Assembly: GCF_937859865.1 (NCBI RefSeq)
Contig: NZ_CALMAT010000174.1
Location: 1-56,909 of the forward strand
Source: an uncultured Mucilaginibacter sp.
GTDB taxonomy: Bacteria; Bacteroidota; Bacteroidia; Sphingobacteriales; Sphingobacteriaceae
Direction: 5' to 3'
DNA: 56,909 nt
Shown here: positions 22,807-25,163 of the stretch, in pieces
How positions within the stretch are numbered: position 1 is the stretch's first letter
Layout: every line of letters begins with the position of its first letter
Translations under genes and position numbers: made by a program
Notes under the pieces: generated by a model
What the model was told of the DNA's origin: nothing
Seen by the model: the letters and a program-made list of their open reading frames with translations, nothing else
Databases searched by the model: none

Positions 22807-22832
22807 AAACGCTGCTAAGTTTTAGCAGCGTT
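22807..22832. terminator. Hairpin terminator
   Basis: AAACGCTGCTAA and TTAGCAGCGTTT form a 12-bp stem around a short loop, with A residues before it; on the minus strand a T run follows, so it fits termination of the SSB-like gene. Confidence 0.8.
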
Positions 22833-22849
22833 TAGATCAAATTTGCCTG

Positions 22850-22967: not shown

Positions 22968-23324
22968 TTAAACTTCTTGCAATACAGGAACAGCATTTAA
23001 AACCTGAAACTTGACAACAATTATTTCGAGCTTGTATTTTTTGATTTGCTGTTCATCATAAAAACTGCGTGTTTGTATTTTGCCTTCAATGTACAATAAA
23101 TGCCCTTTTTGCAACAGTTCGGTTCCTGAAGCGGCAACTTCTTTCGGAATTTTAATATTGTGCCATTCAATCAGTTCTACATTATCGCCATTTTTTTTGA
23201 TGGTTTCGTTGGTTACCAACGGAAAACATAAAACTTCTTTTTGGTCTGTAAAGTTGTGCAAACGGGGTTCTTTGCCAATATGCCCTACAAGGAATACCTT
23301 GTTTATACCTGAATTTGTAAACAT
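22968..23324 (-). CDS. ssb: Single-stranded DNA-binding protein (short SSB)
   Basis: A 118-residue OB-fold protein of the SSB family. The family start is INKVFLVGHIGKEPRL, then VLCFPLVTNETIKK, EWHNIKIPKEVAAS and LLQKGHLLYIEGKIQTRSF with the usual aromatic contacts. It lacks the long disordered tail and the acidic C-terminal tip of housekeeping SSB, so it is likely an accessory SSB rather than the replicative one. It is monocistronic and terminated by the hairpin at 22807-22832. Confidence 0.88.
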   Translation of the reverse strand: MFTNSGINKVFLVGHIGKEPRLHNFTDQKEVLCFPLVTNETIKKNGDNVELIEWHNIKIPKEVAASGTELLQKGHLLYIEGKIQTRSFYDEQQIKKYKLEIIVVKFQVLNAVPVLQEV

Positions 23325-23413
23325 AGCGTGCTGGTTTATATTTGTAATTATCTGGAATGTGCTTTTATCTGAACTGTATTCAATTTTAAAGGCAATTATT
23401 AGTTTTACAATGA

Positions 23414-23423
23414 GTATTAATAC
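23414..23423. promoter_or_regulatory. GTATTAATAC palindrome (site 1)
   Basis: AGTATTAATACT at 23413-23424 overlaps the stop codon of the frameshifted response regulator and lies about 90 bp upstream of the SSB-like gene. The same 10-bp palindrome recurs at 24175, 24409 and 24439. Confidence 0.45.
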
Positions 23424-23817
23424 TAATTTATGCTTGCATTAATACCTAATTTTGGTTGCACGGTTACCAGTTCTGTTACTTTATCTATCAGTTCTGACAA
23501 ATCAAAAGGTTTGGAAATAAAAGCGTTACAACCATAAAAACCTAAAGACTGCAAGACTTTGGGGTAAGCCGAAAAGATGATGACCGGCAAATTTTTGGTG
23601 ATGGAACAGTTTTTAACATTGCTGCAAAGTTCGCCGCCGTTTACGTCATTAATATGTAATCTAAGATCAGCAAATTGGGTTTGCACTTTTTGATCAAATC
23701 TAAAATGTCATCTGTACTGTCGTAAGTGTTTATATCAAAAGCTTCGTAGTTTAGAGCTTCCTGCATTACGTCCAAAATCCGCTGATCGTTATCGAGTACC
23801 AGTACTTTTTTTAGCAT
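23423..23817 (-). pseudogene. Response regulator receiver domain with frameshift
   Basis: From ATG 23817 the frame reads MLKKVLVLDNDQRILDVMQE and KPNLLILDY, the receiver fold up to the phospho-acceptor Asp, then terminates. In another frame the homology resumes as INDVNGGELC and continues NLPVIIFSAYPKVL (Ser/Thr switch region) and CNAFISKPFDLSELIDKVTE with the conserved Lys. A single missing base right after the LDY motif explains it. Corrected, this is a 130-residue stand-alone receiver. It is either a decaying gene or a sequence error. Confidence 0.8.
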
Positions 23818-23821
23818 AAAA

Positions 23822-24124
23822 TTATTGTAAAGCGGTTGAAAGATTAGAAAGATTTTTGAAATTTTTTAAATCCCGCGCATTAAGTTCTACTAAAATTTTT
23901 GTGTTGGCCTTATCCGAAACCCTTTGAAAAGGCTGATAAAAAATGCTGCAATAGGCGCTAAAAGGCTTGGGCAGTTTTTGCAGCAAAGGGTGCTTTTTTA
24001 CAGGTTTTAAAGTGATGCCTACATAAGCATCGTCTTGGTCTATACAAGTAGTTTGAGATAAAAAGAACTTATAACCTTTCTTTATCAAATAACCAAGTAA
24101 ACGTGGGGTCAGTAACGTTTTCAT
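23822..24124 (-). CDS. Hypothetical protein, 100 residues
   Basis: A small basic protein (start MKTLLTPRLLGYLIKKGYKF, centre YVGITLKPVKKHPLLQKL, end RDLKNFKNLSNLSTALQ). No recognised family. It ends four bases upstream of the frameshifted receiver start, so the two are probably one operon, and the GTATTAATAC site at 24175 lies about 50 bp before it. Confidence 0.5.
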   Translation of the reverse strand: MKTLLTPRLLGYLIKKGYKFFLSQTTCIDQDDAYVGITLKPVKKHPLLQKLPKPFSAYCSIFYQPFQRVSDKANTKILVELNARDLKNFKNLSNLSTALQ

Positions 24125-24174
24125 AGTTTAATAATTAATGTTTCAAAGGTCTTTAAAAGATTTTTAACTATAAA

Positions 24175-24184
24175 GTATTAATAC
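24175..24184. promoter_or_regulatory. GTATTAATAC palindrome (site 2)
   Basis: Embedded in AGTATTAATACT at 24174-24185, about 50 bp upstream of the small gene that starts at 24124: a position suited to an operator. Confidence 0.45.
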
Positions 24185-24406
24185 TGTGAATTGGCTCGGA
24201 TAAGTACCCGTTTTAAAAATAAATGCAAGGCTGATGCGAAAAACAAAGGCCTGATTGGAAACTTTAGAAGAGAAAAACTTTAAATATTTATAAGGTTTAT
24301 TTCAACTTAAAAACAAAACCTGGCTTGTAACAGCAAAAACAGGTTTCTGCTTAATCTAAAATTGTATCTGAAAAGAACAAGATTGAAAATTGAAATATAT
24401 AATAAA

Positions 24407-24450
24407 TTGTATTAATACTTGTAAACAGGCGGATGCAAGTATTAATACAA
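24407..24450. promoter_or_regulatory. 15-bp inverted repeat made of two GTATTAATAC sites
   Basis: TTGTATTAATACTTG (24407-24421) and CAAGTATTAATACAA (24436-24450) are perfect inverted copies 14 bp apart; each arm contains the palindrome itself. It lies 20 bp downstream of the NarL-type regulator stop on the minus strand and could be a double operator or a terminator-like hairpin. Confidence 0.55.
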
Positions 24451-24470: not shown

Positions 24471-25163
24471 CTATGAAATTAAACCGCTTAAAATAGCATA
24501 ACGGATAAGTGCTGCCGTGTTTCTGCTTCCGGTTTTATCAATGAGGTTTTGGCGGTGGCCTTCAACGGTGCGTTTACTGGTAAAAAGTTTATCGGCAATT
24601 TCTAAGTTGGTATAACCTTCGGCAATTAAAGATAATATTTCAACTTCGCGTTTAGAAAGTTCTATTTCTGGTTTTTCGTTCGGAACAACCACTTCCGGTT
24701 TATGGATTAATTTGTCCAACATGCGCAAAGAAAGCTCGTTGCAAATATACCGGTCATCGCTTGTGCAAACATGTTTGATGCAGAATATCAATTCGTTTGA
24801 AGTAATATTTTTTAAGATATAACCGGAAGCACCATTTTTAAAAGCCTGAACAATGTATTTTTCGTGATCCAGCATAGTTAGGATAATCACTTTAACTTTT
24901 GGAAATTGCTGTTTAACCAACGTGGTCATTTCCATTCCGTTCATTTCCGGCATGTTTACATCCGCCAGTACAATATCCGCTTTAAAGCCTTTTGCCAGCA
25001 ATTCCAATGCTTGCTTTCCATTGGTGGCTTCCGCAACAATTTCTAAATCCTTATCCTTTTCCAGGATAGATTTTATACCATTACGAACTACGTTGTGATC
25101 TTCTGCAAGTAATACTTTAATCATGTTGTTGCCAGTTTTTAAAAACTGATGGTTAAAATACAA
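24471..25163 (-). CDS. NarL/FixJ-type response regulator
   Basis: A two-domain regulator. The receiver has the acidic pair AEDH, phospho-acceptor Asp in VLADVNMPEMNG, Thr in ILTMLDHE and Lys in GYILKNITSNE. The LuxR-type HTH is ELSKREVEILSLIAEGYTNL, then EIADKLFTSKRTVEGHRQNL. The listed frame starts 13 codons early; MIKVLLAEDH at 25124 is the likely true start, giving 217 residues. It is far from the multi-PAS kinase; its partner kinase is not in the window. It lies between the operator-like palindromes and the catabolic gene run. Confidence 0.9.
   Translation of the reverse strand: MYFNHQFLKTGNNMIKVLLAEDHNVVRNGIKSILEKDKDLEIVAEATNGKQALELLAKGFKADIVLADVNMPEMNGMEMTTLVKQQFPKVKVIILTMLDHEKYIVQAFKNGASGYILKNITSNELIFCIKHVCTSDDRYICNELSLRMLDKLIHKPEVVVPNEKPEIELSKREVEILSLIAEGYTNLEIADKLFTSKRTVEGHRQNLIDKTGSRNTAALIRYAILSGLIS

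Follow-up and report, generated by a model that had tools for sequence, protein, structure and literature searches.

Class II activator promoters are typified by CRP bound at -41.5. For the response regulator considered here, the closest solved structures are VraR, NarL and DevR/DosR. In Bacteroidetes, the accessible part of a published account describes non-canonical LexA repressors of the S24 (CI-like) type, with GGA-N5-TCC and CTAA-N5-TTAG as SOS dyads, sites predicted before ssb in several of these bacteria and a documented divergence of the motif (PMC8565304). As to promoters, the accessible part of another source places the -7 box at -12 to -5 in Flavobacterium psychrophilum (PMC9723704). 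A search of the open-access literature found nothing on the motif or the regulon described below.

The locus lies within a 56,909-bp stretch of DNA, hereafter the window, and its closest named relatives belong to Sphingobacteriaceae (Mucilaginibacter, Pedobacter and Sphingobacterium), which makes its genome a probable member of the same family. Four genes, all on the minus strand, follow one another: a narL-type regulator gene (narL), a 100-aa gene, a broken receiver gene and an ssb paralogue. They are listed here with the sites around them. Centres are counted from transcription starts predicted at about 24139 for the 100-aa gene and about 23376 for the ssb paralogue, and R2 is one of the two element models presented further on.

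24471..25124, minus strand: NarL/LuxR-type response regulator (Pfam Response_reg 3e-28, GerE 4e-16), putative activator
24407..24450, no strand: inverted repeat with two GTATTAATAC arms (24409, 24439), 30-bp spacing, just 3' of narL
24198..24207, minus strand: 100-aa promoter, distal palindrome GTACTTATCC (degenerate; R2 match 24207-24143, 26.2 bits)
24175..24184, minus strand: 100-aa promoter, proximal palindrome GTATTAATAC, predicted centre about -40.5
24144..24151, minus strand: 100-aa promoter, -7 box GACCTTTG (5/6 to TAnnTTTG), 23 nt downstream of the proximal palindrome
23822..24124, minus strand: 100-aa protein gene, proposed target, with homologues in 44/301 family genomes
23423..23817, minus strand: receiver-only response regulator gene, disrupted by a frame change near 23650
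23436..23445, minus strand: ssb promoter, distal palindrome GTATTAATGC, within the 3'-terminal part of the receiver gene
23414..23423, minus strand: ssb promoter, proximal palindrome GTATTAATAC, predicted centre about -42.5
23381..23388, minus strand: ssb promoter, -7 box TAAAATTG (5/6 to TAnnTTTG), 25 nt downstream of the proximal palindrome
22968..23324, minus strand: ssb paralogue of 118 aa, proposed target (Pfam SSB 3e-21), without the acidic C-terminal tip

The regulator combines a receiver and a GerE helix-turn-helix, both scoring over the curated Pfam cut-offs, and is thus of the NarL type. In the receiver gene, the N-terminal part ends after 58 aa and the C-terminal part goes on in another frame; relatives have intact copies (L053, L073), and the frame change may be a sequencing error. 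The 100-aa protein matched no Pfam or NCBIfam family, and its predicted fold (pLDDT 77.6) had no PDB match at E<=0.001. In many genomes it makes up the N-terminus of a ~230-aa fusion with PAS (e.g. L030 1501-2187); the 29 scored loci included 14 such long forms, all lacking the element upstream. Downstream of ssb, a terminator-like hairpin with a T-run was seen at 22807-22833 (minus strand).

A sequence-only reading of the window had reported four copies of GTATTAATAC within 1 kb. An exact string search found them at 23414, 24175, 24409 and 24439, with no fifth exact copy elsewhere in the window, against a mean of 0.03 copies in dinucleotide shuffles (largest 1). Near-copies follow at 23436-23445 (GTATTAATGC, minus strand), the fifth, and at 24198-24207 (GTACTTATCC, the sixth). 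The genome scan which that reading had proposed as a check revealed strong local clustering: the whole genome (G000, 3.98 Mb in 177 contigs) holds 11 exact sites, compared with 2 for a reversed-pattern control, and 4 of the 11 fall within one 1-kb stretch. At the density of the other seven, five of which fall in ORFs of 100 codons or more, finding four sites in 1,035 bp has a Poisson P of 5e-13. When up to one mismatch was allowed, there was no genome-wide enrichment, the sites being rarer than the control (123 vs 211). Because 4 of the 11 exact sites are found here and one-mismatch sites are not enriched, the signal is local and not dispersed. A view centred on the single palindrome was dropped, since this lack of enrichment goes with a conservation that concerns the pair.

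The conserved element of Sphingobacteriaceae consists of two GTATTWATAC-like palindromes 21-24 bp apart, followed by a Bacteroidota -7 box (TAnnTTTG). A matrix trained on the 250 bp that follow narL at 32 loci scored sites at 6 bits or more in 27 of these 32 regions vs 38% of shuffled ones, a score that is circular; the spacing of the palindromes, which is not, peaked at 21-24 bp. We then collected 38 tandem elements preceding a 100-aa, receiver or ssb gene, picked by palindrome score alone with a matrix that covers only the 10-bp site. A -7 box matching TAnnTTTG in at least 5/6 positions lay 23-25 nt past the second palindrome in 33 of the 38. This count averaged 1.7 over 500 shuffles and never exceeded 6, and it ranged from 0 to 5 in three-base windows offset so as not to reach 24 or 25 nt. 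Since the box is reported at -12 to -5 in the part of the Flavobacterium source at hand (PMC9723704), this distance would centre the proximal palindrome at about -40.5 to -42.5, near -41.5, and the distal one ~22 bp further up, near -64. Thus, 33/38 elements have the site distance of a class II promoter. A -33 TTG, 17-23 nt before the -7 box, was present in only 7/38, a count for which the background rate was not computed. Such a layout suggests an activator-dependent promoter. The window has two such promoters: that of the 100-aa gene has the palindrome at 24175 as its proximal half, that of ssb the one at 23414, and the two degenerate near-copies are the distal partners. The 22-bp spacing had also hinted at LytTR-type direct repeats, an idea dropped as the neighbouring regulator is of the GerE type.

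The element is conserved in relatives. In the syntenic genome G027, an exact pair with 22-bp spacing lies ~90 bp before ssb, at the same place as in the window, and in G094, which has 100-aa and ssb genes, a 23-bp-spaced pair lies ~50 bp before the 100-aa gene. Among 47 named narL loci scored, the 1.5 kb following narL held a tandem pair in 11/15 loci with the 100-aa/receiver/ssb cluster vs none of 32 without it (Fisher P 8e-8); these 32 had two further tandem pairs, located elsewhere. No strong pair was found in L151, L156, L161, L179 and G061, despite narL and the cluster. With a strict matrix cut, an element preceded the 100-aa gene in 4/10 narL-linked vs 2/19 unlinked cases, which is no significant difference (P 0.14), one of the 30 loci (L023) having been dropped as it had no ORF. 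A first model, R1, matched at E<=0.007 in 11/17 cluster genomes vs 0/20 comparison genomes (best 0.0075), 11 of the 17 having supplied training rows, and several of its matches outside the cluster lay directly before ssb genes. Both R1 and R2 were trained in part on the loci that they score, and the counts overstate independence because many of the sequences are related.

We also surveyed ssb genes unlinked to narL or the 100-aa gene. Of 90 ssb genes in 29 genomes, 16 linked ones were set aside and the DNA upstream of the other 74 was scored; one linked ssb (G094 C5:13279) stayed among the 74 and scored low. Strong pairs preceded 5/52 unlinked ssb genes in cluster genomes (G194, G227, G254, G173 and G275) and 1/22 in comparison genomes (G154), the latter adjoining a NarL that is 42% identical. 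These observations bear on the local operator set that the sequence-only reading had postulated. Conservation at the same promoters in relatives and the fixed distance to the -7 box speak for such a set, with two amendments: the functional unit is the tandem pair with its promoter and not the single palindrome, and the element is not restricted to the locus, since five relatives have it upstream of unlinked ssb genes as well and, in partial form, it precedes the second copy of the 100-aa gene in the genome of the window (contig C123).

The model R2 was built from 32 training rows, six of the 38 elements, the promoters of five unlinked ssb genes and of one receiver gene, being left out. In the genome of the window, it matched only the second 100-aa gene and, at the top with 26.2 and 25.3 bits, both promoters of the cluster, which were training rows. 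We then scanned 301 family genomes and, from the matches listed, took the 50 with the best scores; 26 of these came from non-training genomes. A NarL-type regulator was encoded in the fetched flank (1.5-2 kb) of 14 of these 26 vs 2 of 20 low-ranked matches (P 0.002), and a regulator or known target in that of 16 vs 3. The number beside narL rose to 18/26 on adding G035, G065 (twice) and G001, where narL had been missed or cut by an ORF caller that accepted only ATG. The gene after narL and the element was a second regulator in the three genomes of genus g15, a receiver gene in g18 (G112) and a kinase-like gene in g13 (G259). As downstream genes differ between genera (g15, g18), narL is the common partner of the element. 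Some elements have no narL beside them, namely those of the G194 100-aa gene and of the five unlinked ssb genes.

The scans gave additional observations. Two NarL-type regulators occur in tandem at L353, L357 and L360 of g15, with the element between them and no ssb nearby. A gene for a BLUF blue-light receptor is divergent from the element-bearing 100-aa gene of G194 (L345 3235-3699). In G027, a strong tandem pair (L086 629-660) is located ~190 bp upstream of a DUF892 gene, and outside the family a weak one was seen in Taibaiella helva (L145 5779-5812), upstream of a kinase gene that adjoins narL. A broad stress regulon, as hinted by DUF892 in G027, hybrid kinases and sugar genes, was considered and rejected, single matches beyond narL, ssb, 100-aa and receiver genes being mostly chance-like.

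Several other explanations were weighed. An accidental clustering of AT-rich palindromes would fit the absence of enrichment of one-mismatch sites in the genome, but the shuffle expectation, the Poisson value, the conservation in relatives and the fixed distance to the -7 box all contradict it, which leaves it a negligible probability. Another rival is control of ssb within the SOS response of Bacteroidota, the palindromes being operators of a non-canonical LexA-type repressor (S24, CI-like) with a diverged motif. Predicted ssb sites and motif divergence are on record for Bacteroidetes, in the part of the source available (PMC8565304), ssb genes are the recurrent target of the element, and in G094 a uvrB-like gene has a weak match (15.5 bits) 173 bp upstream. 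However, the described dyads differ from the element, CTAA-N5-TTAG, the one searched for, occurring 0 times in the window, and the sites at -41 and -64 lie upstream of the promoter instead of over it. Moreover, the common neighbour is narL and no S24 or XRE gene, and matches in the own genome are confined to the three promoters given above. We thus hold this explanation to be quite improbable. Slightly less so, yet still unlikely, is a global activator encoded elsewhere, for which NarL would be a target or a bystander. Elements before unlinked genes, some without narL beside them, would be accounted for, but not so easily the 14 to 18 regulators beside the 26 best listed non-training matches, the fact that narL-adjacent matches include genera with other downstream genes, and the paucity of matches in the own genome.

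The inverted repeat downstream of narL required separate consideration. As the sequence-only reading had it, the last two copies of GTATTAATAC belong to a perfect inverted repeat, whose 15-nt arms (24407-24421 and 24436-24450) are 14 nt apart. It lies in a gap between narL and the 100-aa gene of ~346 bp, vs ~110 bp in G027. The pair at 24409/24439 is a non-standard element, with its 30-bp spacing and no good -7 box (best match 4/6), and R2 gave it only 9.3 bits. The repeat, at first sight the most striking member of the operator set, is thus the least typical one. An alternative for this part only would make it a transcription terminator of narL or a hairpin at the 3' end of its mRNA, with a secondary likeness to an operator. 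The repeat begins ~20 bp past the narL stop, and on the narL strand its RNA would fold with -14.9 kcal/mol (z -5.4), which, together with the atypical spacing and box, favours a hairpin; few G-C pairs in the stem, no T-run on the narL strand and an exact operator palindrome in both arms do not. A scan for intrinsic terminators (G+C-rich stem and T-run) returned only 22807-22833 in the region. A narL 3' hairpin is conceivable, though we would not bet on it; other possible roles of the repeat are those of an additional binding pair or a weak promoter.

Collectively, the data favour, with a probability of about 0.7, the reading that the palindromes are binding sites of the adjacent NarL-type regulator, which would activate the 100-aa gene and the ssb paralogue. 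The tandem element is well supported as a conserved operator/promoter unit, and the NarL-type regulator is its likely binder; among the binders suggested by the sequence-only reading, it is the best candidate, whereas nothing was found that favours an XRE protein. Activation, as the direction of control, and the signal are inferred. Two dimers of the regulator would sit side by side, two helical turns apart, centred near -41.5 and -64, and would recruit RNA polymerase to promoters mostly devoid of a -33 TTG. In the window, two elements would drive the 100-aa gene and ssb, and a partial one would serve the second 100-aa copy. NarL might be switched on by phosphorylation from a HisKA_3 kinase of the PAS or GAF type: kinases of this kind, with PAS or GAF domains, are encoded directly upstream of narL in several relatives (L147, L150 and L156 among them), and no kinase gene is adjacent to narL in the window. 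The window regulator has the phospho-acceptor Asp (VLADVNMP), which an alignment showed to be lost in L069 (ITAINMA), so phosphorylation cannot be general in the NarL group. From the printed sequence, the element-adjacent regulators L358 and L365 also appear to be without this Asp. The output would presumably be more of a tail-less ssDNA-binding protein. Most likely, the palindromes serve a small set of genes, chiefly spare ssb copies, in one environmental family. A bolder and rather doubtful extension is a LexA-independent two-component response for ssDNA handling, in which a PAS/GAF kinase senses stress and several SSBs, unlinked copies included, go up.

If the main reading holds, a widespread regulator, with orthologues in 167/301 family genomes at E<=1e-60 and no description that we could find, would acquire a concrete operator, a promoter geometry and candidate targets. 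For the ssb paralogues of the family, this suggests induction by a phosphorelay and not only by DNA damage via LexA. The geometry of the element is precise enough for predicting new targets and transcription starts.

How does this putative system compare with known ones? It resembles the non-canonical LexA regulon in having ssb as a predicted target and in its palindromic operators, and differs from it, as far as the accessible part of that source goes, by the dyads and by the S24/CI-type repressor (PMC8565304). Like class II activator promoters, the elements have a proximal site predicted near -41.5 and would mostly lack a -33 TTG (7/38 have one); unlike them, they have a TAnnTTTG -7 box instead of TATAAT and a second site near -64, the studied elements having been picked for having one. 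With VraR, NarL and DevR/DosR, the regulator shares the receiver and GerE helix-turn-helix over its full length, proposed palindromic sites of dimer size and, in several relatives, a HisKA_3-type kinase beside narL. The core GTATTWATAC presumably differs from the NarL heptamer pair and from the DevR site. What would further set the present case apart from VraR, NarL and DevR is the pair of putative dimers on the same face of the DNA at a fixed 21-24 bp, and targets that are ssb paralogues.
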